Shown here one piece after another: positions 171 through 34,435 of a DNA stretch of 34,435 nt. The DNA comes from Bacteroidota bacterium (GTDB lineage Bacteria; Bacteroidota; Bacteroidia; JABDFU01). The notes below the pieces were generated by a model that was not told the origin of the DNA, did no database searches, and was given only the letters and a program-made list of their open reading frames with translations. The stretch's first letter is position 1. Each line of letters starts with the position of its first letter. A program made the position numbers and the translations under genes. Location of the stretch: positions 1 through 34,435 of the forward strand of contig JACPDY010000019.1 of the NCBI GenBank assembly GCA_016183775.1, written 5' to 3'.

Positions 171-3100
171 TCATGGAGCGGTAAGGTTAATATTCATACT
201 GCATCCGTTTTTATCTGTAACCTTTACTATATAGTTACCAGGACAAAGTTGATTTTTATACCTGGTCACATATCCATCCGGCCAGGAGTAGGAGTAAGGA
301 CTTGTTCCTCCCGAAGCCGTTACCATCAGCCATTCTTTGCAACCGCACGCTACACAGTTAGCAGTACCTTTTGCAAATTGCCCTGATAGTGGAGGTGGTG
401 AAGTAAATGTCGCTGTTGATGTCGCTGTACAACCCTTGTTATCTGTTACAGTAACAGTATAAGTTCCTGCCGATAAACCTGAAACCTGGAACCCTGAACC
501 CTGAATCACACCACTCCAGTTATACATAAAAGCGGGACTGCCTCCCCCGGCTATTGCTGTTGCTGTTCCGTCATTACTTCCGTTACAGGATAAATTTGTT
601 GCGCTTATTGTTACTGTAACCGCAGGGTTAATTGTAATCGCGGTGGTTGAAGAAGCTGTCGCCCCGGTGTTATCTGTTATTGTAACTGTATAGGTTGTTG
701 ATGAAACAGGACATGGACTTATAGTTTGTGTTGTTTCGTTATTGCTCCATGTATATGTGTATGGGCCGGTGCCATTGCTTGCAGCAGCTGTTATGGTAGC
801 GCAGGTATTCGGGCAAATATCCGCCCCTGTCGCTGTAACTGTAATTCCTCCGCAAGGTGTGCCCGTGATCACAAATGTTGCAGTTCTTACCTGATTGCAA
901 TTACTTGTTGTTGTTACCGTGTAGGTCCCGGGACAAAGGCCGGTAATCGTATTAGAAGCTATTGTACTTAATGTTGAACTGCCATTGCTCCATGCATAAC
1001 TGTAGTCGGGCTCGCCGCAGGTTAAACTAATTGTTGCGGTGCCATTACACGGACTGCAGGAGGTTGCATTAACCTGAGATTGAGTATAAGCAGGTGTGAT
1101 AGGAATAAACTTCATTATGAAAGCATCGTGTATACCTGCGAAACCGCTTTGGTAGTATGCTCCGGCTGAATTCAATAATCCATTCGATGTCATTGTCTGC
1201 CATTCGCCAACAGCAAATAAATTATTATTCGCATCTGTTGTAACCGATGATCCAAAATCAATTCCAAAAGTTCCGGAAGTTCCGTTGTAGGTTGCCCATA
1301 GTCGGACGCCATTATTATTGAATTTCAAAATAAATACATCATCCTGCCCGCCCCCTCCGTAACCGGCCAAATACCCACCGCAGCCCGGATTCAGCGTTGG
1401 GAAATCCGTAGATTTAGTGCGACCTGTTACATAAACATTTCCGCAATTATCTACACATATTGCGGGTCCGTTGTATGTTGCGAATGGTTGGTCATCACTA
1501 CTTCCTCCGTAATAACTGCTCCATAAAAGAGCGTTGTTCGTTCCGCTGAATTTGGCTATGTAGGCATCACCAATAAATCCGGTACCGCCATTATATGTAT
1601 TATCGTAATACGCGCCTCCACCCGGATCTAAAGTAGGGAAGGAGGTATCAGTTGTTTTACCGGTGACAAAAATATTTCCACCGGCATCTACAGCGAGATG
1701 ATGCAGTACGCTAAAGCCAGGCCCTCCGAAATTTGTGGCCCAGGTAGATGCACAGGTCGTACTATTGAATTTTAGAATGAATGAATTTGATATTGTTTGA
1801 AAATACGCTCCACCTCCGGGGTTAAGAGTAGGAAAGGTTGGATTGCCGCCTGATCCTCCTACAAAAACATTTCCAAAAGCATCGCAGGCAATTGAATGCG
1901 CCTGGTCAAAACCGCTGCCTCCGTAGTAAGTTGCCCATACGCGTGCACCGTTAATATCAAATTTGAGTATAAATGCATCAATAGTGCCGTTTAATGCTGA
2001 CTGGTTGTATGCTCCCGCAAAGTTAAGGGTCGGGAAATTGGCTGAGTATGTTCTTCCGGCAATGAAAAGATTTCCGGCGGTATCAAATACTATACCGGTA
2101 CCATCGTCCAAAGCGCTTCCTCCATAGTATGTTGCCCATAAACGTGTTCCGCCATTAGAAAACTTAAGGATATAGGCATCGGCTGCTCCGCCTGTCGCGG
2201 CCTGATTGTATGCTCCGGCTTTGTTTAAGACCGGGAAATTGGTCGATTGAGAATACCCGGTTACAAAAATGTTCCCTGTTACGTCAACGGCAATTGAATT
2301 TGCTTCTTCATAGGAACTGCCTCCGTAATAGGTAGCCCATAAGCGAACGCCGTTGTTATCAAATTTTACAATCTGAATATCATGATCACCGTTGTTAGCG
2401 CCGGAGTAATAATTTCCAGTGGACGGGTTATAAACAGGAAAATTGGTTGATTTGGAATATCCACAGGCAAAAACATTTCCGGCGTTATCGGTTTTCACGC
2501 TTAAAAAGCCGTCATAACTATTCCCGCCGTAGTATGTTCCCCATACCAGCTGCGGGTCGATTATCAATGACTCTCCTATATTATAATTGTCAATAGCGAA
2601 ATGAATACGCGTTTCATAACCGTCTAGATTATTTCTTCTATCAGGACTTTTTACAAAATGCGTCGCTATTTCTTTGTCCTGCTGATAGCTTACAGGTGAT
2701 CTTTCGGTTAATGTGCCTGTGTTAGTCTTAATTTCTACTTCTCCGTTTCTGTTTAATCGTAAAGGCTCGGGAGAAGAATAGATCAATTCTATTTTTTTTA
2801 TATCCGCTCCGGGATGAACTATAAAATCATATTTTAAGCCTTTAGGGTCTGAATTATAAAGTACCCAATCAATGTCCGGGTAAATCTCCTTAATGATTAT
2901 TTTTTCAAAGCTGTGTATATCGGTAATTCCATCAGGGCAGTGACCTGAAAAATATTGTACGAAATCTGTACTCCGCCCTTCTTTTATAATATTTTCCCTC
3001 TTAATGGAAGCGCCATTTAAGGTCATGTCGATCCGATCCCATTTCATCTTCCTGTTTTCTTCGTCAGCTTCATCTTCTCCTTCTTCCATTTTCAGAAACA

Positions 3101-3356
3101 TATACGTAATTCCTTTTTCGGTTATATATATTTCCAAAGAAGGAGCATCTACTTTGAACAATACAAATGGTACAGTTTTTCCCTCCATATCAGTCAATTG
3201 CCCTTTGTTTTCAGTGAACCGGACCGGTTTATCGGTTATGTATTGACGGGTATCATTAGAAATTACAGAACCGACAGTTTTATGATCTCCATTGGCAACC
3301 ACATTTCCAATGACAGGCACAACTAATGCAATGGCTAAAATACGGTTCAAGAACAT
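171..3356 (-). CDS. Exported SBBP propeller / SprB-repeat protein 1
   Basis: This 1061-residue protein starts with a hydrophobic signal peptide (about residues 1-22, no lipobox). Next comes a DUF7948-like domain (about 45-267) with the typical FTENKGQ, 'GITYMF' and 'HPGAD' motifs, ending at IDPQLVW. I count seven blades opening with W-x-T-Y-Y-G-G-like strands (about 268-750), which is one complete SBBP propeller. SprB-type repeats (about 755-985) follow, with the pattern CNGSNDGTAT...GTYTVTVTDNKGC. The final 73 residues form the module shared by the whole family: LSGQF, then C-x2-C-G-C-KEW, PYSYSWPDGY, QLCPG and KNGCS, ending LTAP. There is no classical T9SS type A tail. It is divergent from the helical gene at 3562. 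Export is well supported; a role in adhesion or gliding-type surface structures is inference. Confidence 0.9.
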   Translation of the reverse strand: MFLNRILAIALVVPVIGNVVANGDHKTVGSVISNDTRQYITDKPVRFTENKGQLTDMEGKTVPFVLFKVDAPSLEIYITEKGITYMFLKMEEGEDEADEENRKMKWDRIDMTLNGASIKRENIIKEGRSTDFVQYFSGHCPDGITDIHSFEKIIIKEIYPDIDWVLYNSDPKGLKYDFIVHPGADIKKIELIYSSPEPLRLNRNGEVEIKTNTGTLTERSPVSYQQDKEIATHFVKSPDRRNNLDGYETRIHFAIDNYNIGESLIIDPQLVWGTYYGGNSYDGFLSVKTDNAGNVFACGYSKSTNFPVYNPSTGNYYSGANNGDHDIQIVKFDNNGVRLWATYYGGSSYEEANSIAVDVTGNIFVTGYSQSTNFPVLNKAGAYNQAATGGAADAYILKFSNGGTRLWATYYGGSALDDGTGIVFDTAGNLFIAGRTYSANFPTLNFAGAYNQSALNGTIDAFILKFDINGARVWATYYGGSGFDQAHSIACDAFGNVFVGGSGGNPTFPTLNPGGGAYFQTISNSFILKFNSTTCASTWATNFGGPGFSVLHHLAVDAGGNIFVTGKTTDTSFPTLDPGGGAYYDNTYNGGTGFIGDAYIAKFSGTNNALLWSSYYGGSSDDQPFATYNGPAICVDNCGNVYVTGRTKSTDFPTLNPGCGGYLAGYGGGGQDDVFILKFNNNGVRLWATYNGTSGTFGIDFGSSVTTDANNNLFAVGEWQTMTSNGLLNSAGAYYQSGFAGIHDAFIMKFIPITPAYTQSQVNATSCSPCNGTATISLTCGEPDYSYAWSNGSSTLSTIASNTITGLCPGTYTVTTTSNCNQVRTATFVITGTPCGGITVTATGADICPNTCATITAAASNGTGPYTYTWSNNETTQTISPCPVSSTTYTVTITDNTGATASSTTAITINPAVTVTISATNLSCNGSNDGTATAIAGGGSPAFMYNWSGVIQGSGFQVSGLSAGTYTVTVTDNKGCTATSTATFTSPPPLSGQFAKGTANCVACGCKEWLMVTASGGTSPYSYSWPDGYVTRYKNQLCPGNYIVKVTDKNGCSMNINLTAP

Positions 3357-3373
3357 GCTTGTGTTTATTTATA

Positions 3374-3406
3374 GCAAGTTACGTATAAAACCAAACAGCT
3401 TCCAAA
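3374..3406 (-). promoter_or_regulatory. Candidate promoter of exported gene 1
   Basis: On the minus strand TTTG (3403-3406) is followed after 21 bases by TAACTTGC (3374-3381), 17 bp before the ATG. This resembles the Bacteroidota consensus TTTG / TAnnTTTG. The same octamer with TTTG 20 bases upstream lies ahead of exported gene 5 (31357-31388), which strengthens the call. No transcription start is known. Confidence 0.5.
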
Positions 3407-3561
3407 CCAATTGAGGAGCGATTATTTCCTGTTCAGTATGTTTATGCACTTATAAAAATTTATGCTAATTTAGAACGGACAGATATGTTTTTGGGTTATC
3501 CAGATCCGGATTTTATTTCACATTGTTTTACATCAACTGATTTTTAATAGCTCCTATTCAA

Positions 3562-5082
3562 TTGAAACCGACAAACGACCTGTTCCTGCTTATAAAATCC
3601 CTTCATAAGAACGAGAAGCGGTATTTTAAACTATTCGCCTCATTTTATGAAAAGGATAAACAATACCTGAAGCTGTTTGATAAGATCAGCGCGATGGATG
3701 AATACGATGAAGGTTCATTGAAGAAGCAATTTCAATCCGGAGAATTTGCCCTGGCCAAGCACCGCTTGTATAAGATAATATTAAAAAGCCTGGTTGCATA
3801 TAATGATACGGATGATAACAATGACCTGAATCTGGAATTATATAAAGCCGGTATTCTGAAAAAAAAGCGATTGGATAATGAGTTTTTTAAGAGAATGACT
3901 GTTTTAAAAGAACGGGCTTTGAGTTTGGATAAATATGAAGCTGCTGCATATATTATATCAATTGAAAAAAACATAGCACTTGGTAAAGTAATTTATAAGG
4001 AATCATTTAAGGGGGTAACGGATTTTTTCGGAAACCTTTATACCGTCATTGACAGAAGCAAAGAGTTGAATAAATATCATGAGTTGTATTGGAGGGTTTC
4101 GATTGCGAATAATACCAATGACAAAATAAAAACAAAAAAAGTTTTTGATAACATCATTACTTCTGAATACCTGCAGGATGAATCAAAAGCTACGACCTTC
4201 AGGATGAAGATCTTTTTTCACAACACCTGGTCTGTTTATTACGATCACCTTGGAGATACGACAAATTCGTATAAAGAGATCATTAAACTGAAAGCATTAT
4301 TTGAAAAGCATCCCGCGATCATGGATGACAACCCAAATGAATACATGACCGTATTGTATAATTTATTCGAAAAGGCCATCACGCTTAAGCGATATAAAGA
4401 ATCGCGGCTTATAATAAATGATATCAACAAAGTGCCGACGTATGAAGATGAATCGGGGCTGTACAGAGAGTCTTTATCTCTCGCATGCACCTTAAAGTTG
4501 TATGCAAAAGTATTGCCTGAAAGATCAGAGACGTTTATTGATGATATTGTTTTGCGTAATGATATCCGTAAAAAATTATCAGGCATCCGTTCTCCTTTGC
4601 TGAGGATAGTAATTATGTTTCGTATTGCATACCTGTTATTTGTTTTCCGAAAGTACAGGCCGGCTACAAGCTGGTGCAACAGGATCATTGCTGAATTCGA
4701 CAACTATGAAGTGTTTGGTGAACTTACTGTAATGGTAAACATAATGCAGTGCCTGATTGGCTTTGATACGGGAGATCATGCCATTGTTGAAAGTATTATC
4801 CGTTCATTGTCCCGCCGAAAAAAATATTTAACCCAGAGAGAGAATAAAAAATATTTATTGTTAATTATTTCCTCTTTTGAAAAGCTGAATAAAGATCAAA
4901 CTAGAGAAAGATACAATCGTGAGTTATCTGTTCTCAAAGATAAACTCGAACACTTTGATAACTCAACGGATGAAATTATATTTGATTTTGTTGATGTTAT
5001 TTCATGGATAGAAAGCAAAACAGAGGATCGTCCTGTTGCTGAAATAATCCGAAAGAAAGCGGGTCACGTCAGGGCGCAGTAA
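3562..5082 (+). CDS. Cytoplasmic all-helical protein 1, unknown function
   Basis: I recognise this as a family found five times here but know no function for it. The 506-residue protein has no signal peptide or membrane segment and reads as helical throughout, like TPR-type repeats. Residues 5-25 carry the N-terminal signature NDLFLLIKSL..EKRYFKL, followed by YLKLFDKI, YDE and LYKIILKSL (to about residue 75). The C-terminus has the second family signature, VISWIESKTEDRPVAEII. Translation appears to start at TTG: this start matches the N-termini of the paralogues, and the next in-frame ATG is far inside the conserved region. It is divergent from exported gene 1 across 205 bp. A role as regulator or chaperone of that neighbour is inference only. 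Confidence 0.85.
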   Translation: MKPTNDLFLLIKSLHKNEKRYFKLFASFYEKDKQYLKLFDKISAMDEYDEGSLKKQFQSGEFALAKHRLYKIILKSLVAYNDTDDNNDLNLELYKAGILKKKRLDNEFFKRMTVLKERALSLDKYEAAAYIISIEKNIALGKVIYKESFKGVTDFFGNLYTVIDRSKELNKYHELYWRVSIANNTNDKIKTKKVFDNIITSEYLQDESKATTFRMKIFFHNTWSVYYDHLGDTTNSYKEIIKLKALFEKHPAIMDDNPNEYMTVLYNLFEKAITLKRYKESRLIINDINKVPTYEDESGLYRESLSLACTLKLYAKVLPERSETFIDDIVLRNDIRKKLSGIRSPLLRIVIMFRIAYLLFVFRKYRPATSWCNRIIAEFDNYEVFGELTVMVNIMQCLIGFDTGDHAIVESIIRSLSRRKKYLTQRENKKYLLLIISSFEKLNKDQTRERYNRELSVLKDKLEHFDNSTDEIIFDFVDVISWIESKTEDRPVAEIIRKKAGHVRAQ

Positions 5083-5104: not shown

Positions 5105-5179
5105 GTTGTTGGTTGTCAGTAATCAATATGTGGTTGCCTGAAATAGCTTTTTGGTTTACCACAACTGACAACCAACAAC
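5105..5179. terminator. Stem-loop between convergent genes
   Basis: The arms 5105-5120 and 5164-5179 are perfect 16-base reverse complements around a 43-base loop, which holds a smaller TGTGGT/ACCACA pair. The element lies between the stop of the helical gene (5082) and the end of exported gene 2, so it could stop transcription from both sides. There is no clear T-run, so a plain repeat is possible. Part of the same structure is at 1-63. Confidence 0.4.
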
Positions 5180-5252
5180 TAAATCACGGCGTGCTCAAAT
5201 TCACATTCACACTACACCCATTTTTTATTAAGGGATGACATCGCTTCGAAGC
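5111..5252. repeat. 142-bp direct repeat, right copy
   Basis: Identical to 1-142. Here the repeat runs straight into the coding sequence of exported gene 2. It includes that gene's apparent original last 14 codons (5184-5225, now out of frame) and half of the palindrome (5224-5252). The two direct copies could recombine to delete or duplicate the first cassette. Confidence 0.95.
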
Positions 5253-8200
5253 CCGGGCAGAGCTGATTTTTGTACCCGTTTACATAACCATCGGGCCAGG
5301 AGTAGGAGTAAGGGCGTGTACCGCCAGAGCCGTTTATCATCAACCATTCCTTGCAGCCGCAGCCTGCGCAATTGGCCGTGCCTTTTGCAAATTGTCCGGA
5401 CAAGGCGGGTGGAGCAGCTATTGTAACAGATGAAGTTCCTGTACAACCTTTGTTATCTGTTACAGTAACCGAATAGGTTCCAGCGCTTAAGCCGGAAACC
5501 TGGAACCCGGAACCCGGAGCTACATTACTCCAGTTATAGGTGAAAGGCGAAGTACCGCTGCTTCCGCTTGCCTGCGCCGATCCGTCATTGCTTCCGTTAC
5601 AGGTTAAATTTGTTGCATTGACTGTTACAGTAACCACAGGATTAATTGTCACAATTGCAGTTGAAGTGGCTGTAGCTCCTGTATTATCAGTTATAGTAAC
5701 AGTATATGTTGTTGTAGCTGCAGGACAAGGATTAATATTTTGGGTTGTGCCGCCTGTGCTCCATAAATAGGTATATGGTCCGGTGCCACCCACAGTGCTT
5801 GATGTAACTGTGCCGCATGATCCGGGGCAAACTGAGTTGCCCGTGGCAGTTACTGAAGGGCCTGTGCAATTTATGACAGTTATTGTACTTTTTATTGAGG
5901 TGTTACAGGTGCCGTCATTTACACTATGAGTTACAGTATAGGTTCCAACGGTTAGAAAGGCATACGAAAAATTTGTTGTCGTACCGCTTACATTGGCCGG
6001 TGTTATATTGGAAATGAGCCAATTGTAGGTTATTCCGGTGCCCGGTGGTGTACCTGTATTGGTAAAGTTTACATTACTTCCGATACAAACGGTTCCGTTA
6101 GGGGATTGTGTAAATGATGGATCTACAGGGCTTGTTGAGGGAGCGATGGTAGCTGTTGATGTTTGGGTACATCCATTGGCTCCCGTTACTGTTACTGTAT
6201 ATGTATCTGCACTCAAACAACAGCTGTAAGTGCTTTTGGTTCCATTAGACCAGGAATAGGTATATGGGCCTGTGGAACCATTTGCACTTGCTGTTGCACT
6301 GCCATTTGCATTATTACAGCTTGTGCCTGTTGAGCTTACGCTGACGGGAATTTGGGGTGGTTGAGATATGTTTACAGCTACTATTGACGTACAACTACCG
6401 GCATCTGTTATTGTGGCCGTGTATGTACCCGCACCGAGTCCAGTAGCAGTTGAGGTCGTGCTTCCGTTTGACCATGAATAGGTATATGGTGAGGTTCCGC
6501 TCAAAACTGAAATTGTTGCAGATCCATTGTTTGCGCCATAACAAAGCAGATTTGTTTTTGTTACGGATGTTGTTAATGCTCCGGTTGAGGTAACCGTAAC
6601 AACAGCGGTATCCTTATTGCAATTTACATCTGTAACAATTACACTATAGGTTCCGGCTGCAAGACCCGAGATAGAAGGGGTGGTTTGACCTCCGGGTATC
6701 CAATAATAGCTGTAGGAAGACATTCCACCGGAAATACTGGCTGTGGCAGTGCCAATATTACCATTGGTACAATTACCTGTTGGGGTTGCAGTTGCCGTTA
6801 CATCTAATGGGTCAAGTGTGCATGCAGATAAATTAACCGATGCAAGGAACCCATTTCCGCATGCAAGTATTTCTCCGAAATTTCCAAGGCATATATCATA
6901 AATGGCAGCCGAAGTTGCCGCGGATGCCAGGAAAGTAAGGTTGGGATCGTATTTGTAGACTGCATTTTGAGATGATACGTATACATTTCCGCATGTATCA
7001 GTTACGATCCCTGAATTACCGCTTGCGCTTGTAATTGCAGTTCCCCCCGGAATTGTAACTGTATTTATTAATGCACCATTGGTAATATTTCTTTTTTGCA
7101 GAATTGCACCATTGCTGACAAAGAGAAATTGCTTGCTGGCAGCAATTAAATGAAGGGAAACAGGATATGCCACATTTGTATATGATCCTGACCAATAAGT
7201 AATATTAAAACCACCGGAAGTGTTCCATAAATTACCCCAGCCGGGCCCGAACGCTCTTATTCTTGCTGTATTTCCTTGCTCGGCAGTAACACCATAATAA
7301 TTTCCATTTGGAGCTCTGATACAATCTCTCATATCCTCACTTGTTTGACCGATTATTGGATAACCACCAACCGAATATTGATAAACACCGGTTAATGGAT
7401 TAAAAATTTGTTCCGGAGCACCATTGTATCCTGTTGCATACAAAATGGTATTATCACAATCAAACAATATGCGGTAAGGCTCATCATTTCGTATGCCCGA
7501 GCTTGACCATATTAGAGCACCTGCCGAACTCACTTTAAAGAACGGGCTTCCGCATAAGCCACCGCCCGAAATATATACATCACCTTTCTGATCAATTTTC
7601 AGATCATCACCGTAGCAGCCTCTCCAATCATAACCACATGTTGGAGTAGGTACATATGTCCAGATCAAAGCTCCTGCGGAAGAGAATTTTTTCACTCTGA
7701 AGAAATTACCAAGGCCACCTCCGGTACCGCCTAAAATATATACATTACCGGCCTTATCCTTTTCTACTTCCAACGCTTTATTTGGTCCGGGTAAAGCAAC
7801 TCCGGTTGTCCATGGATCAATGATAACGGTGTTTTTTTTATTATAATTATTAAGTTTAAAAGTGACAATATTGTTTTCTGTTTCAAAGTCAGAGCCAATA
7901 ACGGACATATCCGAATGGTAAAAGGTAAACGGCGCATGATCAATGATGTCACCAATTGAAGTACTCAGGTGGATATTTCCGCTTTTATCTTTATAAATTT
8001 TTTCAGCACCTGTGTATTTCATTTGGATTTTTGAGGCATCAGCTCCGGGATGAAGAGTCAATGAATATTTCAAGCCTTCCTTTTTGTGGAAAATATATTC
8101 CAGATCAATACCAGGGTAAAGATTTTTATAAATTATTTTTTTAAATGCGGATGCTTTGTATGATTTTTTCTCATCTCCATATGTATAGTACTCCGGAACA

Positions 8201-8702: not shown

Positions 8703-8732
8703 AAAGAATGAAATGTGAACATTTCATTCTTT
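8703..8732. promoter_or_regulatory. 30-bp inverted repeat in divergent promoter region 2
   Basis: AAAGAATGAAATGT (8703-8716) and its exact reverse complement (8719-8732) are separated by GA. It lies mid-way between the divergent starts at 8637 and 8844. Such a long, nearly spacer-free dyad suits a dimeric repressor or activator site for both genes. A transcript hairpin is the alternative. Confidence 0.5.
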
Positions 8733-10403: not shown

Positions 10404-10440
10404 TCAGTAATCAGTGATCGGTAATCAGTAATCAGTGATC
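10399..10440. repeat. 21-bp tandem duplication after helical gene 2
   Basis: Two perfect copies of a 21-bp unit beginning GGTAATCAG occupy 10399-10419 and 10420-10440, followed by degenerate units to about 10472. The stop codon of the upstream gene (10401-10403) lies within the first unit. Related units recur at 33044-33080, at the equivalent position of another cassette. Confidence 0.9.
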
Positions 10441-10481
10441 GGTGATCGGTAATCAGTATAATTAGTAATCGGTTAACTCTA

Positions 10482-13817: not shown

Positions 13818-13846
13818 TGTAGTATTAAATTCGTGTTATTTCTTTG

Positions 13847-13854
13847 CAAAATTA
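13847..13854 (-). promoter_or_regulatory. Candidate -7 box of exported gene 3
   Basis: TAATTTTG on the minus strand matches the Bacteroidota TAnnTTTG box and lies 29 bp before the ATG. I find no TTTG at the expected spacing upstream, so this is half a promoter at best. Confidence 0.35.
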
Positions 13855-13919
13855 AAGGCGAGCTATGTTAATATAATGAGAAGCAATTATTGCTGAACAT
13901 AAATTTATGCTATTCTTGA

Positions 13920-13948
13920 TTGACATTCAATTAATAATATTATTTTTA
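13920..13948 (+). promoter_or_regulatory. Candidate promoter of helical gene 3
   Basis: TTG (13920-13922) is followed after 18 bases by TATTTTTA (13941-13948). The same octamer lies ahead of helical gene 4 (24992-24999). Transcription would begin near 13955, leaving a leader of about 60 bases that contains the hairpin at 13960-13997. Confidence 0.35.
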
Positions 13949-13959
13949 TAAGAACTAAT

Positions 13960-13997
13960 TATTGTATATTAATATATTATATAATTGATATACAATA
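13960..13997. promoter_or_regulatory. Imperfect inverted repeat before helical gene 3
   Basis: Fourteen-base arms 13960-13973 and 13984-13997 (TATTGTATATTAAT and its partner) pair with one mismatch around a 10-base loop. It lies 17 bp before the ATG at 14015. It could be an operator or a leader hairpin that affects translation. The region is very AT-rich, so chance is not excluded. Confidence 0.35.
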
Positions 13998-14014
13998 AAT
14001 TATATTTATTTATT

Positions 14015-24755: not shown

Positions 24756-24819
24756 GGGGCGCTTTCTAATTATTATTCTTGTTCGGATTCTTTGTAATGC
24801 CTTGTGTTTACTCATTTAT

Positions 24820-25032: not shown

Positions 25033-26565
25033 ATGCCCAAGAACCCTTCCTCTAATCTTTTTGACCTGATAAAATCTTTAACCAAACAGGAAAAAATTTC
25101 GTTTACCCTTTATACTAAGAGGAATGAAAAAAAGCTTGTTTATATAAAGCTTTTTGAGACTATAAATAATCGGGGAGAATATAATGAGGAGTATATACGG
25201 AAGTTAATGGGCTTAACTTCTTCTCACCTTTCCGAACTCAAAAATTATTTATATAATCTTATACTCGAAAGCCTGGAAATCCATCACAAAGAAAGTAACG
25301 CAGAAATAATACTTCATCGTACAGTTATTCATATACATATTTTATATAAAAAAGGACTCTATTCCCAGTGTTTAAAGCTTGTTAAAAAGGCCTATAAGAT
25401 TGCTGAAGTTGAGGAAAATTTTTCGGTCATGACAGAGCTATATTATTGGGAATCTCTTTTAGCTCAGAAAAACAGGAATATTTTAGAATTAAAAAATGCG
25501 CTTAAAAATAAAGACCGGATCCGGGAATGTTTTACAAAAAACTACAATCTTTTTGAATATACAGAATTAAAACTTCAAGCAGCTTTGCTGATTGTTCAAC
25601 GGCAAATTTTTCTGAATAGGGCTGAAACTACAAAAGTTAATACTATTTTATCTCATAAACTCTTGAGCGATGGCTCAGGTATTATGTCCGATAAAGCCAG
25701 AGTACAATACTATCAAATAAAAAATGTATTGTTTGCTTCGCTTTGTGATTTTGTTTCTTCAAATCAAATCCTTGATCAGTTTATTCAATTTATGGAAGAC
25801 AAACAAGGTATTACATCATCCAATTTGAGCACCTATTGCAATACACTTCACAATAAAATTGTTTTTACGTTATCAATAAATAAATTCGAGGAAGCACAAA
25901 AAAATTTAAAAAAGCTTGATCATGCCATTATGTTAAAAAAACAGTTGGATAAAACAGATTTACATGTGACCTTGCTCTCGTATTATACATTATCTTCCGG
26001 TTTATATATTAAGACAGGTGAATTTCAGAAGGGGTTGGAATACATTTCCTTGCTGAAAAAGGATTTTATATTTAATAATTTGCCAAAATCCAAACAACTG
26101 ATCCTTCATCATAATTGCGCTTATCTTTTTATTGGCACTAATGCATTTCGTAATGCCCTTTCTGAATTAAATGCTATTGTTAACACAGCTACTGATGAAA
26201 GGAGTGATATTTTTTCATTTGCAAAAATCTTATTGCTTATAGTGCATTATGAGCTGAATAATATGGAGTTGTTAGAATCTCTTATTCGTTCAACGCTGAG
26301 GTATTTCCTGAAAAAAGGCAACCTTTTCAAGTTTGAAAAAGCCATTATAAATTTTATCGGAAAAAAGTTACCAAGGGTGAATGGCAAAAAAGAATTAATA
26401 GCGGCGTTTAAGGATTTGAAAGAAGAACTGATGTCCCTTTCACATGATTCCGTAGAAAAATCAGCGTTTGAATATTTTGATTTTATTTCATGGCTTGAAA
26501 GTAAAATTGAGAACCGTCCATTTGTTAAAATTGTTATTGAAAAGGCGAAGATAGTTAATGGTTGA
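25033..26565 (+). CDS. Cytoplasmic all-helical protein 4, unknown function
   Basis: A 510-residue family member starting at ATG, without export signal. The N-terminal signature is NLFDLIKSLTKQEKISFTLY, less conserved than in the others (EKISF for EKRYF). YIKLFETI, YNEEYIRKLM and LKNYLYNLILESL follow. Helical repeats fill the middle, and the C-terminal signature FDFISWLESKIENRPFVKIV is strong. It faces the kelch gene, not an exported SBBP gene, across about 217 bp from that gene's upstream Met. It may be the displaced partner of exported gene 4, separated by the three-gene block, or a true partner of that block. Its 3' end shares 26 identical bases (26531-26556) with helical gene 2. Confidence 0.85.
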   Translation: MPKNPSSNLFDLIKSLTKQEKISFTLYTKRNEKKLVYIKLFETINNRGEYNEEYIRKLMGLTSSHLSELKNYLYNLILESLEIHHKESNAEIILHRTVIHIHILYKKGLYSQCLKLVKKAYKIAEVEENFSVMTELYYWESLLAQKNRNILELKNALKNKDRIRECFTKNYNLFEYTELKLQAALLIVQRQIFLNRAETTKVNTILSHKLLSDGSGIMSDKARVQYYQIKNVLFASLCDFVSSNQILDQFIQFMEDKQGITSSNLSTYCNTLHNKIVFTLSINKFEEAQKNLKKLDHAIMLKKQLDKTDLHVTLLSYYTLSSGLYIKTGEFQKGLEYISLLKKDFIFNNLPKSKQLILHHNCAYLFIGTNAFRNALSELNAIVNTATDERSDIFSFAKILLLIVHYELNNMELLESLIRSTLRYFLKKGNLFKFEKAIINFIGKKLPRVNGKKELIAAFKDLKEELMSLSHDSVEKSAFEYFDFISWLESKIENRPFVKIVIEKAKIVNG

Positions 26566-26640: not shown

Positions 26641-29600
26641 TCACGGCGCGCTCAAATTCAGATTCACACTGCACCCATTTTTATCCTTAATATTTACGAT
26701 GTATGTTCCCGGGCACAGCCGATTCTTATATCTGTTCAGATATCCATCGGGCCAGGAATAGGAGTAGGGGCTCGTGCCGCCTCCGGCTGTTACCATTAAC
26801 CACTCTTTACATCCACATCCCGCACAGCTGGATGTACCTTTAGTGAATTGTCCGCTTAATGGAGTGGGCGAAGATAGTGTTGTAGCGGCGGTGTTAGTAC
26901 AGCCCTTGCTATCGCTTATTGTTAACGTATAGTTGCCGGCTGTTAGGCCTGTTGCTGTTGGACTGTTTTGTCCATTGCTCCAAATGTAGTTAAAAGGAGA
27001 GCTGCCGCCGCTTATGGTTGCCAGTGCCGATCCGGTTCCTCCGGCACACGTTATGTTTGTCGGAGTTATACTTGCTGTAGGAGCCGGATTAATGTTTATG
27101 ACAACTGTTGTGCTGGCCGTTGTTCCTCCTGCATCTCTGATGGTAAGTGTATAAGTGGTATTTGATAAAGGACACGGACTTATATTTTGTGTTGTAGCAC
27201 CATTGCTCCATGAATAGGTATATGGAGTTGTTCCTCCCGAAATACCGGATATTATATTGGCACAGGAGCCCGAACAAACGGGATTGCCGGAGGCTGTAAC
27301 CGTAATGCCGGTACAGTTGATCACTTTTACTGTAGATGTTGCTGTATTACTACACGTTGCTCTTGCAACAGTATGAGTGATTGTATATGTTCCTTCGTAT
27401 AAAAAGGAAGCTGAAAAATTTGCGGTGGTGCCGCTTACATTGGCCGGTGCGCCAATATTCCAGTTGTAGGTGGCGCCGGCGGTAGTTATGCCCGTAAAAT
27501 TTACAGGCGTTCCCGTGCAAACGGTTCCTGTTGGAGATTGTGTAAACGAGGCACCCGGAGAAATGATAATAGCCGCAGTTGTTGTGTTTGTAACACCCGC
27601 AGCATCTTTAACTGTAACCGTGTATGTGGCATCACTTGTCGCGCATGGAAAAATGGCAGCGGTTGTTGCACCTGTGCTCCAACTATATGTATACGGAGTC
27701 GTTCCTCCTGTTGCATTTGCGGTTATTTTCTTACTGCAATCTCCGCTGTTAGCGCAACCTCCTCCAAATGTTGCAGGGGATGGAACTCCGGAAGTACAAT
27801 TAACCACAACTAAAGTATCATCCTCAAACAGATTACAACTTCCCTGTGTTCCCTGGTGCCAGATTACATATGTTCCCGGGATATTGAATGTAAATGAGAA
27901 ATTAGTTGTAGTGCCGGAACCGCTTGCAGGTCCGCTTACCTGCCAGCTACCGCCTGTCATTGTACCCGTATTTGTAAATGTTACGTTTGTTCCGACACAA
28001 ACTACTTTGCCCGGAGAAATGGTAAATGTAGCTGTTGGAAAAGCTCCCTGTGCAACTGTAACGGTTGCAGTTTGTGAGCAGCCGCTTCCTCCATCTGTAA
28101 CATTCACTGTAAATACGCCGCTGTTTAATTGCGTTTGATTGGGATTTAAACGGCTGAACGAATTTACAGGTGGCAGCCAGGAGTAAGCATAAGTACCTGT
28201 TCCTCCCGTTATTGTTGGTGTTGCAGTACCTGTACCCAATGCTCCGCCGGGAGGACAGGTATTCGGAGTTGTGGCGATAGAGATCGTAAAAGGCGGATAT
28301 GTAGTGATGGTTATCGTTTTTGTTCCCGTACATCCGTTCGCATCGGTTGCTGTTACAGTATAAGTGCCGGGGGCCATGTTATAAACAGAAGATGAAACTT
28401 GTCCGCTGCTCCAATTGTAGCTGTAGGGGGATGTTCCATTGTTTACGGTTACGGAAGCGGTGCCGTTATTTACTCCGCTGCAAGCTGGATATATTGCAGA
28501 TGTAATAATATTTAAGATGGGAGAAATGGTCACATAAGTTGTATCCGTATGAGTTGTACCTGAGGCATCGGTTACTTTTACAAAGTAGGTAGTATTGGTG
28601 GATGGGCAAGGGTTGATGGTTTGCGTGGTAGCTCCTGTGTTCCAGCTATAGGTATATGGTGCGCTTCCGCTTGTACTGGCAGTTATCACGGGGCAGTTTC
28701 CGGTACAGATGTTCATTTTTTTTGGAATTCCGTTTATGTTGCAACTAAGTACCTTTATGGTATCTCTAAGGGTGTCTTTAACACATGTTGAAATTTTTTC
28801 AAGGATAAGTGTTACAACGTATGTACCGGGTGTATTATAAAGATGCGAAGCGTTATAAGTAGTGGCTGTACCACCATCGCCAAAATTCCAGGTATAATTA
28901 TCATAACCTGTACTTGAATTATTGAAGCTGGCAGAAAGCGGCGCGCAATTTTTTTTAGGTGATGCAGTGAAAGCGGCTACAGGAATTGTATTGGGAGTTA
29001 CAGGTGTAAATTTTATAAAATACATTTCGCGGTTAACACTTGCTGTATGAGGTTGTATGTAGGCTCCGCCTCCCGGGTTGACAAGTTGAAATCCTCCTGT
29101 TAACTCGGACCCAATCATCGCTGCAATATTGCCGGTTCCATCCACACTTATTGAATTAGGTTGTTCGGAATTAATATTGGTTGTACTCGGATCGATGTAT
29201 GTAGACCATAAGCCTGTGCCATTATTGTTAAATACTGCAATATGGCCTCGTTCCAACTGACATGCGCATGTAGCGGGAGGGCAGCTATAAGGAGAAGCAG
29301 GATTAATTACCGGAATATTTTGCGAATAGGTGCCGAAGGTGATATATATTCTACCTTCTTTATCAATAGCCAGGGAATTGTCCGCATCCCAGGTGTTATT
29401 ATAATCAGATTCTGAACCGCCATAGTAAGTTGCCCACATAAGCACTCCTGCGTTATTAAATTTCAGGATGAACAGATCCGGATAAATATATGCTGCCGGG
29501 CCATTGTTATGGATGTTATCGTAATAAGCTCCTCCGCCAGGGTTATATGTAGGTATATTAGATGATTCAGTATACCCCAGTACAAATAAATTTCCGCATT

Positions 29601-31308
29601 GGTCTGTTACAACAGAATATCCTTCGTCTGTTCCGCCCATACCGCCTGCACCGTTACCTCCATAATAAGTTGACCAGGTCAGGTTTAATGTCGAACTAAA
29701 CTTAATAATGAATGCGTCTGCCACTTTCCAGCTATTGCCACCATTAAACGTATTGTCAAAGAAGGCTGGTCCTCCCGGGTTCACAAGAGGCATGTTGCCG
29801 TCAGTAGATCCGGTTACGAAAACATTTCCGAATTTATCTGTTGTTATAGCGTTTCCAATGTCATTTTGGTTGCCGCCAAAGTATGTACTCCATAAAGGAT
29901 TTCCATTCCTGGTTAATTTGACAACAAAGGCATCTGCATTTCCACCACCGCCAAAAGCCTGCATATAAGCTCCACCCGGGTTGATCATTGGAAAATTAAC
30001 AGAATTGGTAAAGCCTGTTGAATAAATGTTTCCCTGAACATCCGATGTAATGGAGATTGCAATATCCATAGTACTTCCGCCCAGATAAGTTGCCCAGTTT
30101 CTTATTCCTGTATCTGTAAAACTAATGAGGATGGCATCGTTATTGCCATTGGCAGTTGCATCATACGCATTTGATGTAGGGAAATTGGTCGAGGTTGAAC
30201 TGCCGGCAATAAGAATGTTGCCAAGGTTATCCGCTTTTACCGACCATGATTGGTCGTCAGCGGTACCACCATAAAAAGTAGCCCATTGTTTAACTCCCCC
30301 GGTGGAGAATTTAAGAATAAAAAGATCAACAGTTCCGGCGACACCGCCCTGGAAGTAAGCGCCGCCAAACGGATTAAGAACAGGAAATCCGGATGTAGTA
30401 TACGATCCCCCGGATACAAAAATGTTCCCAATCCTGTCTGTTGTCATCTGGCATCCGCCATCTCCGCCTGAAGTTCCCCTGCTTACATGGTAAGTCGACC
30501 ACAACACACTTGGGTCAATAACAAGCGTGCCTTTGCCATCCCATTTTACATCGAAACCAATACATCCATTCTCGCCGATCAGGTAACGGGCATCTGTCTT
30601 TTGCCGATGACCATCCCGCTCAACATAGCAATACAGGTCGTTTTCTTCAATGGTGCCGTATGGTGTATGAATGATTAACCTCCCATTTTTAATTTCTGTT
30701 TTTTTCGCCCCTTCAATTTTAAACCGCACTTGTTTTATGTCCGCGCCTTCGTTGAGGATAAATTCATGCTTAAGGCCATTGTCGGAATTTTTTACCCTCC
30801 AGTCAATGTTTTTCCAAACTTCCCTGTACTGCACCTGTTTATAGTGAGGTACATGCGTGATGCCTTCCGGATGTTCCGCTGTATAATAATTTGTGTAAAA
30901 CAAATCTTTATCCGATTCAGTTATGAGAATATCCTTATTCATATTCTCTAATACAAGGTTTACTCTGTATGTATGTTCTCCTTTTACCTTTAAAAATTTG
31001 TCATCATCGTCTTTTTCCTCCTTTTTTCCGGGGATCAACGAATGAGGGTCATTATTAAGAGTGTCATATTCAAATTCACGATACACGTAACTGAGGCCCG
31101 ATCTGGTGAGGTATGTTTCTAATCCGTTGTTTTTACTCCTGTACAATACATTATCTGCCGGTTTTCCATCTGACGACAGAAACTGTCCCCTGTTTTTTTC
31201 GAAAAGTGATTCCGGTAATTGGCTGTCGGTATATTTATTGTTGCCGCCGGAAATATACTGGGCGGATGCGATAAACAGGGAAGTAATAAATGTATATTTT
31301 ATTTTCAT
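26641..31308 (-). CDS. Exported SBBP propeller / PKD / SprB-repeat protein 5 (largest)
   Basis: The protein has 1555 residues, with a signal peptide at about 1-21. The DUF7948-like domain (about 35-264) reads FEKNRGQ, a variant of the usual ENKGQ. Seven blades (WATFYGG, WATYLGG, WSTYFGG, WSTYYGG, WATYYGG and two weaker, about 265-775) follow. Next is a canonical PKD domain (about 778-855) with YTWNFGDGG and 'PGTYVVTLIL'. A long stalk of alternating SprB-type repeats and two further PKD-like units (FTISPGKVVCVGTNVTFTNT, FTQSPTGTVCTGTPVNFTG) reaches about 1480. The shared terminal module (about 1483-1555) has SSCAGCGCKEW, RLCPG and NLSAP. The extra 400-500 residues relative to its paralogues come from this stalk. 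It is divergent from the helical gene at 31525. Confidence 0.9.
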   Translation of the reverse strand: MKIKYTFITSLFIASAQYISGGNNKYTDSQLPESLFEKNRGQFLSSDGKPADNVLYRSKNNGLETYLTRSGLSYVYREFEYDTLNNDPHSLIPGKKEEKDDDDKFLKVKGEHTYRVNLVLENMNKDILITESDKDLFYTNYYTAEHPEGITHVPHYKQVQYREVWKNIDWRVKNSDNGLKHEFILNEGADIKQVRFKIEGAKKTEIKNGRLIIHTPYGTIEENDLYCYVERDGHRQKTDARYLIGENGCIGFDVKWDGKGTLVIDPSVLWSTYHVSRGTSGGDGGCQMTTDRIGNIFVSGGSYTTSGFPVLNPFGGAYFQGGVAGTVDLFILKFSTGGVKQWATFYGGTADDQSWSVKADNLGNILIAGSSTSTNFPTSNAYDATANGNNDAILISFTDTGIRNWATYLGGSTMDIAISITSDVQGNIYSTGFTNSVNFPMINPGGAYMQAFGGGGNADAFVVKLTRNGNPLWSTYFGGNQNDIGNAITTDKFGNVFVTGSTDGNMPLVNPGGPAFFDNTFNGGNSWKVADAFIIKFSSTLNLTWSTYYGGNGAGGMGGTDEGYSVVTDQCGNLFVLGYTESSNIPTYNPGGGAYYDNIHNNGPAAYIYPDLFILKFNNAGVLMWATYYGGSESDYNNTWDADNSLAIDKEGRIYITFGTYSQNIPVINPASPYSCPPATCACQLERGHIAVFNNNGTGLWSTYIDPSTTNINSEQPNSISVDGTGNIAAMIGSELTGGFQLVNPGGGAYIQPHTASVNREMYFIKFTPVTPNTIPVAAFTASPKKNCAPLSASFNNSSTGYDNYTWNFGDGGTATTYNASHLYNTPGTYVVTLILEKISTCVKDTLRDTIKVLSCNINGIPKKMNICTGNCPVITASTSGSAPYTYSWNTGATTQTINPCPSTNTTYFVKVTDASGTTHTDTTYVTISPILNIITSAIYPACSGVNNGTASVTVNNGTSPYSYNWSSGQVSSSVYNMAPGTYTVTATDANGCTGTKTITITTYPPFTISIATTPNTCPPGGALGTGTATPTITGGTGTYAYSWLPPVNSFSRLNPNQTQLNSGVFTVNVTDGGSGCSQTATVTVAQGAFPTATFTISPGKVVCVGTNVTFTNTGTMTGGSWQVSGPASGSGTTTNFSFTFNIPGTYVIWHQGTQGSCNLFEDDTLVVVNCTSGVPSPATFGGGCANSGDCSKKITANATGGTTPYTYSWSTGATTAAIFPCATSDATYTVTVKDAAGVTNTTTAAIIISPGASFTQSPTGTVCTGTPVNFTGITTAGATYNWNIGAPANVSGTTANFSASFLYEGTYTITHTVARATCSNTATSTVKVINCTGITVTASGNPVCSGSCANIISGISGGTTPYTYSWSNGATTQNISPCPLSNTTYTLTIRDAGGTTASTTVVININPAPTASITPTNITCAGGTGSALATISGGSSPFNYIWSNGQNSPTATGLTAGNYTLTISDSKGCTNTAATTLSSPTPLSGQFTKGTSSCAGCGCKEWLMVTAGGGTSPYSYSWPDGYLNRYKNRLCPGTYIVNIKDKNGCSVNLNLSAP

Positions 31309-31356
31309 ATTAAGGCTTGTGTTCGTTATTCCCGGTTCATTTTCTTTCGTCAGAAT

Positions 31357-31388
31357 GCAAGTTAAATCAGTTAAAAGGGATGAACAAA
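31357..31388 (-). promoter_or_regulatory. Candidate promoter of exported gene 5
   Basis: On the minus strand TTTG (31385-31388), 20 bases, TAACTTGC (31357-31364), 48 bp before the ATG. The same pair of boxes precedes exported gene 1 (3374-3406). Confidence 0.5.
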
Positions 31389-31416
31389 ACTTTTTTTTTA
31401 TTATCTTGTTGTTCTA

Positions 31417-31448
31417 AAATACATAAATTTATTTAAATTAATGTATTT
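31417..31448. promoter_or_regulatory. Imperfect 32-bp inverted repeat in divergent region 5
   Basis: The arms 31417-31431 and 31434-31448 (outer part AAATACAT / ATGTATTT) pair over 15 bases with one mismatch around TT. It sits near the middle of the gap between starts 31308 and 31525, like the dyad at 8703-8732. It is a candidate shared operator, though low complexity weakens the case. Confidence 0.4.
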
Positions 31449-31467
31449 CAATTAGTTATAAACTTAT

Positions 31468-31495
31468 TTTGCATATTTCAGATTGACTTAATTTG
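31468..31495 (+). promoter_or_regulatory. Candidate promoter of helical gene 5
   Basis: TTTG (31468-31471), 17 bases, TAATTTG (31489-31495), 29 bp before the ATG. It is one base short of TAnnTTTG, and the spacing is at the low end. Confidence 0.3.
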
Positions 31496-31524
31496 TTTGC
31501 TGTTACCCCAATAAATATTGAATA

Positions 31525-33042
31525 ATGAGTAAGAATAGTGAACTTTTCAACCTCGTCAAATCTCTTTCTTCATCCGAAAAAAGATATTTTAAATTGCAGG
31601 CTTCGGTGTTCAGGGAGAATGATAGTTTACTCTCCCTTTTCGACCTGCTTGACAGGCAGCAAAAATACGATGCAAAGGAAGTCTTAAAAGAATTTAAGAG
31701 CAAGAAAAAAGATAAACAGCTATCCGATACAAAAAACAGGTTGAATAATCTTATTCTGAAAAGTATGCGGGCATATAATGTCGCCAGGTCAGTGGATAAT
31801 CAACTTAATGTAATGTTTCAAAACATAAATTTTTTGCTTCAAAAAAAACTGTTGAGACAAGCGGAAATGGAATTATTAAAAGTGGAGCGATTGGCAACAC
31901 TGCATGAGAAGTTTAACTACCTGTTAGAGGCAATAGGTTTAAGGTGGAACTATTTCAATACGGATGTTAAGACAATGTATGCTACGCACGAGGAAGTGAT
32001 CAGGAAAATAAATAATGCGGCTCAATATCATCTGATGCTGGGCACTTTAGCTGAAGCAATTGCAAAAACGGGAACGGTGGTGCGCGATCAGAATAAGATC
32101 AAAAAAATAAAGCAGTCTGTTAATAATCCTTTGTTTAAAGATGAGCGTAAAGCCTTTACAAATTACTCAAAGATATATTACTTCCTCACACAATTTTTTT
32201 ATTACAGGACGATCGGTGATATGAGATCAGCATACAAAATGTCGGCACGTTTTGTCAAATACCTTGAAGATCAGCCGGCGTTTATAAATCAAAATCCAAA
32301 CGCGTATCGTTCAGCCCTGAATAATTATCTGGTAAGTCAATTGGATAATAGAAAATTCAACGATTTTTATGAGTGTATTGACAAGCTTAGGTTGATCGCT
32401 GATAATTACCCCAATGCAAATAATCATGAATTTGTTAACGCCGTGCAGTTGAGAGTTTTTGAATTAATGATGGAATACTACCTTGTTACTATGCAATTAA
32501 ATGAAGGAATGAGGCTTATCCCTGAAATTGAAAGTTGGTTGGATCAGTTAAAAGCAGTCAGGGAGCCCGGCATCGAGATCACTATATGTATGTCGATCGT
32601 GCAACTGTTGTTCATGGCTTCAAAATATACAGACGCGCTTAAGTGGCTAAACAGGATATTGAACCAAAGTCATGAAAATTATGCGATCGTTAAAGATGTT
32701 CATGCGTTGGCGCGGATCATGGATCTGCTGATCCATTATGAAATAGAGAATGTTGATCTGTTGGAGTACAGGTTGCGATCTGCTGAACGATTCCTGGTAA
32801 AAGAAGAAAGACATTTTAAATTTGAAAGTGAAATTATTTTATTCTTCAAAAAAAATCTTCATCAATTTTCAGAGAAAGATCGCATGAAAAAGGAGTTAAA
32901 TATATTGAAAGATAAGTTGAATAAGATTGTGAAAGATCCGCTTGAGCAACAGTTTCTGAATTACTTTGACTTTAATTCCTGGATAGAGTCTAAGATCCTG
33001 GACAGACCATTTGCAGAGGTTTTGCAGGAGAAGACTATGTAG
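31525..33042 (+). CDS. Cytoplasmic all-helical protein 5, unknown function
   Basis: A 505-residue family member starting at ATG; no signal peptide or membrane segment. It has the N-terminal signature SELFNLVKSLSSSEKRYFKL (about residues 5-24), then LLSLFDLLDRQQKYDAKEV and LNNLILKSMRAYNVA. The middle is a series of helix pairs rich in aromatic and basic residues. The end reads NYFDFNSWIESKILDRPFAEVL. With the protein at 3562 it shows the EKRYFKL motif in its fullest form. It is divergent from exported gene 5 (216 bp) and convergent with exported gene 6 (68 bp). Function unknown. Confidence 0.85.
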   Translation: MSKNSELFNLVKSLSSSEKRYFKLQASVFRENDSLLSLFDLLDRQQKYDAKEVLKEFKSKKKDKQLSDTKNRLNNLILKSMRAYNVARSVDNQLNVMFQNINFLLQKKLLRQAEMELLKVERLATLHEKFNYLLEAIGLRWNYFNTDVKTMYATHEEVIRKINNAAQYHLMLGTLAEAIAKTGTVVRDQNKIKKIKQSVNNPLFKDERKAFTNYSKIYYFLTQFFYYRTIGDMRSAYKMSARFVKYLEDQPAFINQNPNAYRSALNNYLVSQLDNRKFNDFYECIDKLRLIADNYPNANNHEFVNAVQLRVFELMMEYYLVTMQLNEGMRLIPEIESWLDQLKAVREPGIEITICMSIVQLLFMASKYTDALKWLNRILNQSHENYAIVKDVHALARIMDLLIHYEIENVDLLEYRLRSAERFLVKEERHFKFESEIILFFKKNLHQFSEKDRMKKELNILKDKLNKIVKDPLEQQFLNYFDFNSWIESKILDRPFAEVLQEKTM

Positions 33043-33080: not shown

Positions 33081-33110
33081 TTTACCAACAACTGACAACC
33101 AACAACTAAA

Positions 33111-34435
33111 TCACGGCGTACTCAAATTCACATTCACACTACATCCGTTTTTGTCTTTAATATTTATAAGATAAGATCCCGGGCAAAGCTGGTTTTTATA
33201 CCTGTTCACATATCCGTCGGGCCAGGAGTAGGAGTAAGGGCTTGTACCACCGTTTGCAGTAACCATTAACCATTCTTTACAGCCACAGCCTGCGCAATTG
33301 GCTGTGCCTTTTGTAAATTGTCCGGACAAGGAGGGTGGAGCAGCTATTGTAACAGATGAACTTCCTGTACAACCTTTGTTATCTGTTACAGTAACCAAAT
33401 AGGTGCCTGCACTTAAACCCGAAACCTGGAACCCGGAACCCGGAACCACATTACTCCAGTTATAGGTGAACGGAGTTGTACCGCTGTTTCCTGTTGCGGT
33501 GGCTGAACCATTTGTACCGCCATTACAGGTTATGTTTGTTGAAGTAACAGTAACCGAAACCGCAGGATTAACATTAACCGTAGCTGTGGTGGTAGCTGTA
33601 GTTCCACCTGCATCTCTTATTGTAACAGTATAAGTAGTAGTTGTAACGGGACAAGGATTAATGTTTTGTGTTGTGCTGCCGTTACTCCATGAATAAGTAT
33701 AGGGACTGGTACCGCCTGCGCCGGTTGATGTTACCGTTGCGCATGAACCCGGGCAGACAGAACTGCCCGTAGCAGTGACCGCTGGACCGGTAGCACAATT
33801 TATTACTTGTATCAGGTATAGTACGATGTTAGAACACCCTGCAGTTACTACGCTATGAAAAACACTATATGTTCCTGCAGTTAAAAATGTGTAGGAAAAA
33901 TCCGGAGATGTACCGCTGACACTTGCAGGTGCAGAAATGTTCCAACTATAGGTACCCGTAGTGCCTGTATTTACAAAGGTTATTTTTTGTCCGACACAAA
34001 TAGGTGAAGGGTAAGTAAAAGTCGCGGATGCTGGGCTTGTCCCGGTAATATTTACTGTTGAGGTACCTGTGCAGCCACCGGCATCGGTTACTGTTACTGT
34101 ATAAATTCCGGAAACAGGACAAGAAATATTTGAGCTCGGTTGACCTGTACTCCATAGGTATGTATAAGGCGCAGCACCACTAACATTTGAAACATACGCA
34201 TTTCCGCTTTGTGTGCACGTGATATGAGTGCCAATGATATTGAATGTCGGGCTCGCACTGCTGGCTATATTTACGGTGGCTGTGCCTATACAGCCTGCAT
34301 TATCTGTAACTGTTACAGTATAGATACCCGCATTTAGGCCGGAAATATTTTGAGTATTAAGGCCCCCCGGATTCCAACTATAAGTAAAAGGTGTGGTACC
34401 TGTCATGGTTACGACATTTACCTTAGCCGAGCCCT
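33111..34435 (-). CDS. Exported SprB-repeat protein 6, partial (start beyond window)
   Basis: The frame is open to the right edge, reading GSAKVNVVTMTGTTPFTYSW at the border, so the visible 441 codons are only the C-terminal part. They hold SprB-type repeats, one PKD-like unit (ATFTYPSPICVGQKITFVNT...GTYSVF), two more SprB repeats with GSGFQVSGLSAGTY, and the shared module at the end (LSGQF, ANCAGCGCKEW, PDGYVNRYKNQLCPG, KNGCSVNVNLSTP). By analogy the rest would be a signal peptide, a DUF7948-like domain and a propeller, with a divergent helical gene beyond. Its tail is identical to the detached remnants at 74-115 and 5184-5225. Confidence 0.9.
   Translation of the reverse strand, partial: GSAKVNVVTMTGTTPFTYSWNPGGLNTQNISGLNAGIYTVTVTDNAGCIGTATVNIASSASPTFNIIGTHITCTQSGNAYVSNVSGAAPYTYLWSTGQPSSNISCPVSGIYTVTVTDAGGCTGTSTVNITGTSPASATFTYPSPICVGQKITFVNTGTTGTYSWNISAPASVSGTSPDFSYTFLTAGTYSVFHSVVTAGCSNIVLYLIQVINCATGPAVTATGSSVCPGSCATVTSTGAGGTSPYTYSWSNGSTTQNINPCPVTTTTYTVTIRDAGGTTATTTATVNVNPAVSVTVTSTNITCNGGTNGSATATGNSGTTPFTYNWSNVVPGSGFQVSGLSAGTYLVTVTDNKGCTGSSSVTIAAPPSLSGQFTKGTANCAGCGCKEWLMVTANGGTSPYSYSWPDGYVNRYKNQLCPGSYLINIKDKNGCSVNVNLSTP

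Follow-up and report, generated by a model that had tools for sequence, protein, structure and literature searches.

The window, a stretch of DNA of 34,435 nucleotides, is the start of contig C19 in the assembly of a bacterium from a little-known group of Bacteroidia (4.54 Mb, 97.7% complete), and it contains an array of two kinds of genes arranged head-to-head. In the notation used here, S denotes the genes of exported proteins carrying DUF7948 with SBBP and/or SprB domains, H denotes the genes of predicted helical proteins, and X denotes intervening genes whose products are cargo of the type IX secretion system (T9SS). Six S genes, all on the minus strand, and five H genes, all on the plus strand, are present. 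The initial annotation described this region as a tandem array of divergent S–H pairs with gaps of 205, 206, 197, and 216 bp, and strands, coordinates, and gap lengths were all found to be correct. This work considers what the H genes are, where else they occur, and what they may do for the genes that they face.

The array at the start of the contig

The features of the window, read along the contig, are the following.

171–3356, minus strand: S1, with signal peptide, DUF7948, SBBP propeller, SprB repeats, and a 72-residue C-terminal module (C-module)
3357–3561: S1–H1 divergent intergenic region, 205 bp, resembling the gap at G000:C11:~22 kb
3562–5082, plus strand: H1, a BT_2802/RusR-like helical protein with a TTG start
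5212–8637, minus strand: S2, with DUF7948, PKD, and SprB, and a C-module lacking its last ~20 residues
8638–8843: S2–H2 divergent gap of 206 bp, with 80% identity to the corresponding gap in MAG-335
8703–8732: 30-bp palindrome AAAGAATGAAATG-TGAA-CATTTCATTCTTT in the S2–H2 gap, a candidate operator
8844–10403, plus strand: H2, whose MAG-335 orthologue (locus L032) is 82% identical
10512–13817, minus strand: S3, with DUF7948, SBBP, SprB, and C-module
13818–14014: S3–H3 intergenic region, 197 bp with the ATG start of H3 (167 bp with the upstream TTG)
14015–15577, plus strand: H3, with an ATG start and a possible upstream TTG at 13985
15625–18975, minus strand: S4, with DUF7948, SBBP, SprB, and C-module
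19248–20306, minus strand: X1, an exported protein with a T9SS type A tail
20359–22221, minus strand: X2, exported, with a T9SS type A tail, weakly polysaccharide-lyase-14-like
22233–24815, minus strand: X3, a Kelch-repeat T9SS cargo protein and the divergent neighbor of H5 (gap 217 bp)
25033–26565, plus strand: H5
26641–31308, minus strand: S5, with DUF7948, SBBP, PKD, many SprB repeats, and C-module (1555 aa)
31309–31524: S5–H6 divergent gap of 216 bp, with 84% identity to the corresponding gap in MAG-335
31525–33042, plus strand: H6, whose MAG-335 orthologue (L044) is 86% identical; structure modeled, pLDDT (predicted local distance difference test) 88
33111–34433, minus strand: S6, C-terminal part with SprB/PKD and C-module; open at the 5′ end, the rest lying beyond an assembly gap

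Two elements of the initial description stand in part. S4 and H5 had been called a split pair, and they do lie apart; X1, X2, and X3 are found between them, X3 being the immediate divergent neighbor of H5, and X3-X2-X1-S4 form a single-direction run behind it. S6, described as a partial unit, is indeed incomplete in the window, and it continues past a run of N just beyond the window's end (C19:34436 onward; L168, about 437–474), which cuts the gene into halves unreadable as a single frame. On the far side of this run lies S6's own DUF7948, and beyond S6 there is a same-strand gene of ~1030 aa, followed by a further S and a further H.

Expansion in the genome and in the genus

The view of the array as an isolated case does not hold, and the recurring divergent pair is borne out on a much larger scale, with the same S–H pattern repeated throughout the genome. 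There are 94 matches to H, 83 of them longer than 1 kb, together with ~146 matches to the C-module and 140 to DUF7948, which puts the number of S genes at about 140. H genes add 2.8% to the roughly 9.5% of the assembly that is taken up by reading frames with a C-module at their end. A divergent DUF7948 gene is found within 1 kb of 56 of the 83 H genes, against about 1.3 by chance. Among the 76 H genes that could be evaluated, the upstream neighbor is divergent in 72, and this neighbor is an S gene in 51 instances and another gene in 21. The usual layout is a single H heading a divergent run, and in this subgroup of the genus most of the ~80 H genes are placed ahead of runs of 1–4 S genes.

Exported proteins account for most of the 21 other partners, and T9SS-like tails are present in many of them; one partner is leuA-like. 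The H genes at G000:C2:62588 (L186) and C93:37839 (L179) are divergent from similar proteins of ~205 aa (VQEAVTTHQLDVVYRLRYKV...), which are acyltransferase-like by eye and are a candidate for a further class of targets.

The nearest named relatives are two uncultured-Bacteroidia metagenome-assembled genomes, JAEUTS01 MAG-335 and JADLGT01 SJ452, and both have the same order of C-module, H, and DUF7948. Regarding the genus, the C-module occurs in three of the six genomes searched, the present one included, and the other three have no C-module, 0–7 H genes, and 1–42 DUF7948 genes.

H genes across the Bacteroidota

H was found in 66 of the 247 genomes of a phylum sample, usually in single copy. 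For the analysis of its placement outside the genus, 58 H loci from 32 genomes were used, with the other genes of the same loci as the comparison. The gene upstream of H is divergent in 48 of these 58 loci (83%), as opposed to 97 of 258 other genes (38%, p 2e-12), and the median gap to the divergent neighbor is 190 bp. Many of these loci are linked to leucine biosynthesis and are orthologues of one another; when the test was repeated without them, 29 of the remaining 39 H genes were still divergent (p 3e-6).

At least 19 of the partners in these genomes are genes of leucine biosynthesis, 2 are PII genes, 1 is a ribokinase gene, and 15 are exported or T9SS-like by a crude signal-peptide rule. 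The two PII cases (L207 and L220) show H divergent from a GlnK-like gene in two genomes of one genus. None of the 58 loci has a DUF7948 partner, which sets aside the idea of an exclusive pairing of S with H. Thus, at the level of the phylum most H homologues do lie away from SBBP/SprB genes, an outcome that the initial annotation had named as speaking against a dedicated system, and inside the lineage they do not. Partners as varied as leucine, PII, ribokinase, and exported-protein genes have as their simplest common denominator the regulation of the neighboring operon, and the cytoplasmic, metabolic nature of several of them fits a regulator rather than a chaperone or a secretion helper. Both possibilities had been raised for H at the outset, and the partners of the family agree with the former.

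The leucine-linked H genes, including the copy in the present genome, form one clade (support 1.0). In 36 leucine-linked intergenic regions, TAC[AG]ATG lies at the start of H, with T at −4 in 36, A at −3 in 33, and C at −2 in 31, and TTAC[AG][AC]T occurs again near −72, ~67 bp upstream, in 12 of the 36. On the basis of this conservation, the two motifs are a candidate control element of the Bacteroidota leucine operon. The element is seen across many families (L115, L190, L201, L204, L211, L212, L227–L246, and others), and none of the papers searched describes tetratricopeptide repeat (TPR) regulators beside leuA.

The H protein and its relatives

The H proteins are about 505–530 aa long, show no signal peptide when inspected by eye, and gave no family in a Pfam search. 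They do have a described relative, contrary to the initial impression that no described system was involved: those of the window match the NCBIfam model NF058569 BT_2802 (ribose utilization protein) along its length with E values of 1e-25 to 1e-45, and most of them align to positions 1–502 of its 502, H3 aligning in two stretches. We take RusR to be BT2802. The likeness extends to the size of ~500 aa and to the position of the gene beside the operon that it serves, and one relative from outside the genus (L222), divergent from ribokinase, reaches 427 bits, also below the 550-bit cut-off of the model. The differences are the scores of the window H proteins, which are far below that cut-off, the surface-protein partners, and the ~80 copies in place of one or a few; in addition, the window H genes are not at a ribose-utilization locus, their neighbors being S or other exported-protein genes. 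RusR is described as the regulator of the ribose operon BT2803–2809 of Bacteroides thetaiotaomicron (PMC12596196).

An AlphaFold2 model of H6 is all-helical (pLDDT 88), and weak TPR matches are also seen in the H sequences. The TPR-type matches returned by Foldseek include MalT domain III, RapF, PlcR, and NprR; compared with such one-component regulators (MalT, PlcR/NprR/Rap, RRNPP), the modeled H would share a helical-repeat, sensor-like body, whereas no recognizable helix-turn-helix and no peptide gene were seen. The N-terminal domain of 109 residues, modeled alone, has a pLDDT of 87. The invariant residues K19, L38, D482, W486, and K490 (H6 numbering) are grouped at the two ends of the protein.

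Taken together, we think it probable that H is a phylum-wide family of TPR-like cytoplasmic proteins, distantly related to BT2802 and encoded head-to-head with the operon that it controls, which in this lineage has radiated to ~80 copies heading S runs. Several observations weigh against this reading. The window H proteins score 89–154 bits against the 550-bit cut-off of BT_2802, and the Pfam search found in them no known DNA-binding domain and no helix-turn-helix. In Foldseek, the full-length fold matches only generic TPR proteins, every E value being above 0.001, and among solved folds there is no match for the N-terminal model, for which the best E is 3.3. Moreover, the distances between H proteins do not follow those between the DUF7948 domains of their partners (51 paralogous pairs, Mantel r 0.04, a value reached by 1153 of 5000 shuffles), and the H and S trees are incongruent. 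Finally, the intergenic DNA has no motif or dyad common to the S–H gaps genome-wide, and three of ten orthologous gaps are near background (0.53, 0.54, and 0.61 identity).

History of the pairs

The lack of correlation between H and DUF7948 bears directly on the proposal that the two genes were co-duplicated as a unit. A positive control, in which one segment of an S gene was compared with a second segment of that gene, does show a correlation (r 0.64, 26 genes), and H distances track neither the DUF7948 nor the propeller nor the C-module of S. With this internal control, strict co-duplication is rejected at the level of paralogues.

Between species the picture is one of stability. Twelve H genes of MAG-335 and SJ452 have a clear or near orthologue in the present genome (43–86% identity), eleven of them at 58% or more, the next best match being mostly at 29–41%. 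The orthologous S partner is kept for nine of the twelve, in two cases with a DUF7948 that is partial here; H2 is among the pairs in which it is not kept, and S2 is the odd member of the array. Stable pairs between species, combined with uncorrelated distances among paralogues, indicate S proteins with separate and deeper histories. Likewise, the window H proteins are only 20–28% identical to H1, yet two of them have orthologues at 82–86%, so the array is not a fresh tandem duplication. S-linked H genes are scattered in a quick tree, but an approximately unbiased (AU) test does not reject a single clade for them, the tree of which is even the likelier (p 0.68); for this reason repeated recruitment of H to S is not claimed. 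Forcing the H genes of the array into one clade gives a tree 51 log units worse, which is not formally rejected (p 0.097). In our reading, the private two-gene cassette gives way to a regulator-like family, widespread in the phylum, that has been recruited to a repertoire of surface proteins.

These histories also matter for the proposal that H is a cytoplasmic chaperone, a secretion pilot, or an assembly helper for S. The putative TPR-like helical repeat is of a kind also found in chaperones, the S–H adjacency is constant in the genus, and the C-module of S is conserved, all of which speaks for such a role. However, H distances follow no part of S compared, a single H often stands ahead of several different S genes, and relatives of H face genes for leucine biosynthesis, PII, and a ribokinase, for which no export is needed. 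We regard this role as improbable.

Intergenic DNA between S and H

The S–H gaps, with lengths centered on ~200 bp, are under constraint. The identity of the gap exceeds that of the fourfold degenerate sites of H in all ten orthologous pairs (mean 0.71 vs 0.55); seven of these gaps have identities of 0.69–0.85, non-orthologous gaps have 0.49–0.57, and the gaps at the 3′ side are mostly less conserved. In the S2–H2 gap, the two sides of the palindrome at 8703–8732 differ between the species in a paired manner: AAAG...CTTT in the present genome stands against AAAT...ATTT in MAG-335, so that the symmetry is preserved.

Dyads are no commoner in the S–H gaps than in shuffles (6 of 49). The sequence GTCAAA was considered as a shared operator and rejected because it is over-represented (15 vs 3.4) but not fixed in position, and an RNA element was rejected, as Rfam gave no match. 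The Bacteroidetes promoter box TAnnTTTG occurs 12 times on the H strand and 14 times on the S strand, against 6 expected, and is loosely placed. The absence of a shared motif would follow from every H having a separate site, but also from H not binding DNA.

A different view is that H is a regulator active after the start of transcription, on the mRNA of S, on translation, or on RNA polymerase, rather than a DNA-binding factor. That no DNA-binding fold was found in H and that the conserved leucine-linked element overlaps the start codon of H are in keeping with this mode of action, whereas the symmetry of the S2–H2 palindrome and the conservation across the gaps suit a site in double-stranded DNA; on balance, we consider it unlikely.

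The gaps also bear on whether the divergent placement is incidental, with S and H having expanded separately in shared hot spots and being functionally unlinked. Uncorrelated paralogue trees and the 21 H genes of this genome with other divergent partners would be natural under that scenario, which is nonetheless very improbable given the divergent orientation at 72 of 76 own and 48 of 58 foreign loci, the ~200-bp gaps, their conservation, and the stable partners between species. With H as the proposed regulator, the arrangement resembles that of LysR-style regulators, which stand head-to-head with their target across a common intergenic region. Unlike these, H belongs to an unrelated family, and its S-linked copies have no shared binding site that could be found.

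The S proteins and their C-terminal module

DUF7948 is found in S1–S5 with 137–168 bits, above the gathering score, and is followed by SBBP and/or SprB/PKD domains; SprB is above its cut-off in S1–S5 and is also present in S6. In domain content, S thus resembles known DUF7948/SBBP/SprB exported proteins (T9SS cargo, SprB adhesin), and the genome encodes the SprA translocon and at least 150 T9SS type A tail sites besides the S family. The S proteins differ in their termini: matches to Por_Secre_tail (PF18962/TIGR04183) are weak and internal, none being C-terminal, and in place of the type A tail of X1–X3 they end in the Cys-rich C-module of 72 residues. Export of S through the T9SS is predicted. 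None of the papers searched joins SprB repeats and SBBP.

The C-module ends exactly at the stop codon in all 75 copies read. Its copies have 74% amino acid identity, while their fourfold sites, in 15 copies from this genome, have 0.38 identity vs 0.26 expected; high protein identity with near-random silent sites means that the module is held by purifying selection, and the same low silent-site identity argues against explaining its conservation by fresh gene conversion. Searches outside the genus returned ordinary SprB-type repeats only. The module is undescribed and may be a sorting, processing, or anchoring signal.

A conserved terminus is pertinent to the idea that S and H form a toxin–immunity or self-recognition pair, in which H would protect against the S of kin. 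The many divergent variants per genome recall such systems, and H6 has a weak, sub-threshold match to CdiI_2. Polymorphic toxin and contact-dependent inhibition (CDI) systems, in contrast, have a variable C-terminal toxin domain and a cognate immunity gene; the C-terminus of S is its most conserved part, a domain search found no toxin domain in S, and in other genera members of the H family are partnered with metabolic operons. The pair is hardly credible as a toxin–immunity system. A phage or defense system was rejected, as H has no match in PHROGs or PADLOC and S none in PADLOC.

Repeats in the window

Positions 1–142 of the window are an exact repeat of 5111–5252, that is, the contig start matches the stretch behind H1 and S2. 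The C-module of S2 is truncated exactly at this 142-bp repeat, beside a half-palindrome that is whole, as a perfect palindrome, at 120–155. The repeat, about as long as one k-mer of 141, may stem from a join made during assembly or from a true rearrangement. In addition, the heptamer GTAATCA is repeated 8.4 times at 10393–10458, where the ends of H2 and S3 face each other, and the SBBP part of S3 contains an in-frame tandem repeat of ~204 bp (3.4–4.3 copies, 11857–12722) that represents a duplication of propeller blades.

Proposed mechanism and significance

That H regulates S, in whichever sense and in response to whichever signal, is what we infer from homology, placement, and conservation. 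In the proposed scheme, H would bind, or act at, the region of roughly 120–300 bp between itself and the S run, would use its helical repeat body to sense a signal in the cytoplasm, and would switch its S run in response. The S proteins would then be exported by Sec, displayed at the surface, and processed via their shared C-terminal module. It is plausible that they are adhesins or surface-layer proteins, held as a repertoire from which a few at a time are expressed. Many surface-protein loci, each with a local regulator gene, are also seen in the SusCD loci or polysaccharide utilization loci of Bacteroides; the S units differ in that no SusC/D was seen in them and the regulator is of a different family.

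A bolder version of this proposal, to which we give somewhat less than an even chance, is that H represents a phylum-wide class of Bacteroidota regulators in which the N-terminal domain binds nucleic acids and is of a new type. The older members would be regulators of leucine, nitrogen, and ribose operons, whereas in this genus the class would have become a private set of ~80 separately addressable switches for ~140 surface proteins, occupying more than 12% of the genome.

The array of the window thereby becomes a general, testable statement, namely that a family of helical proteins of ~500 residues marks, across the Bacteroidota, the operon that it probably controls, including that of leucine biosynthesis in many families. 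For secreted proteins, the C-module is a candidate for a new, genus-specific sorting or anchoring signal. The H family is probably a large class of local gene switches that has hardly been studied; if so, it would be a new regulator class for the phylum and would explain how one bacterium handles ~140 large surface proteins.

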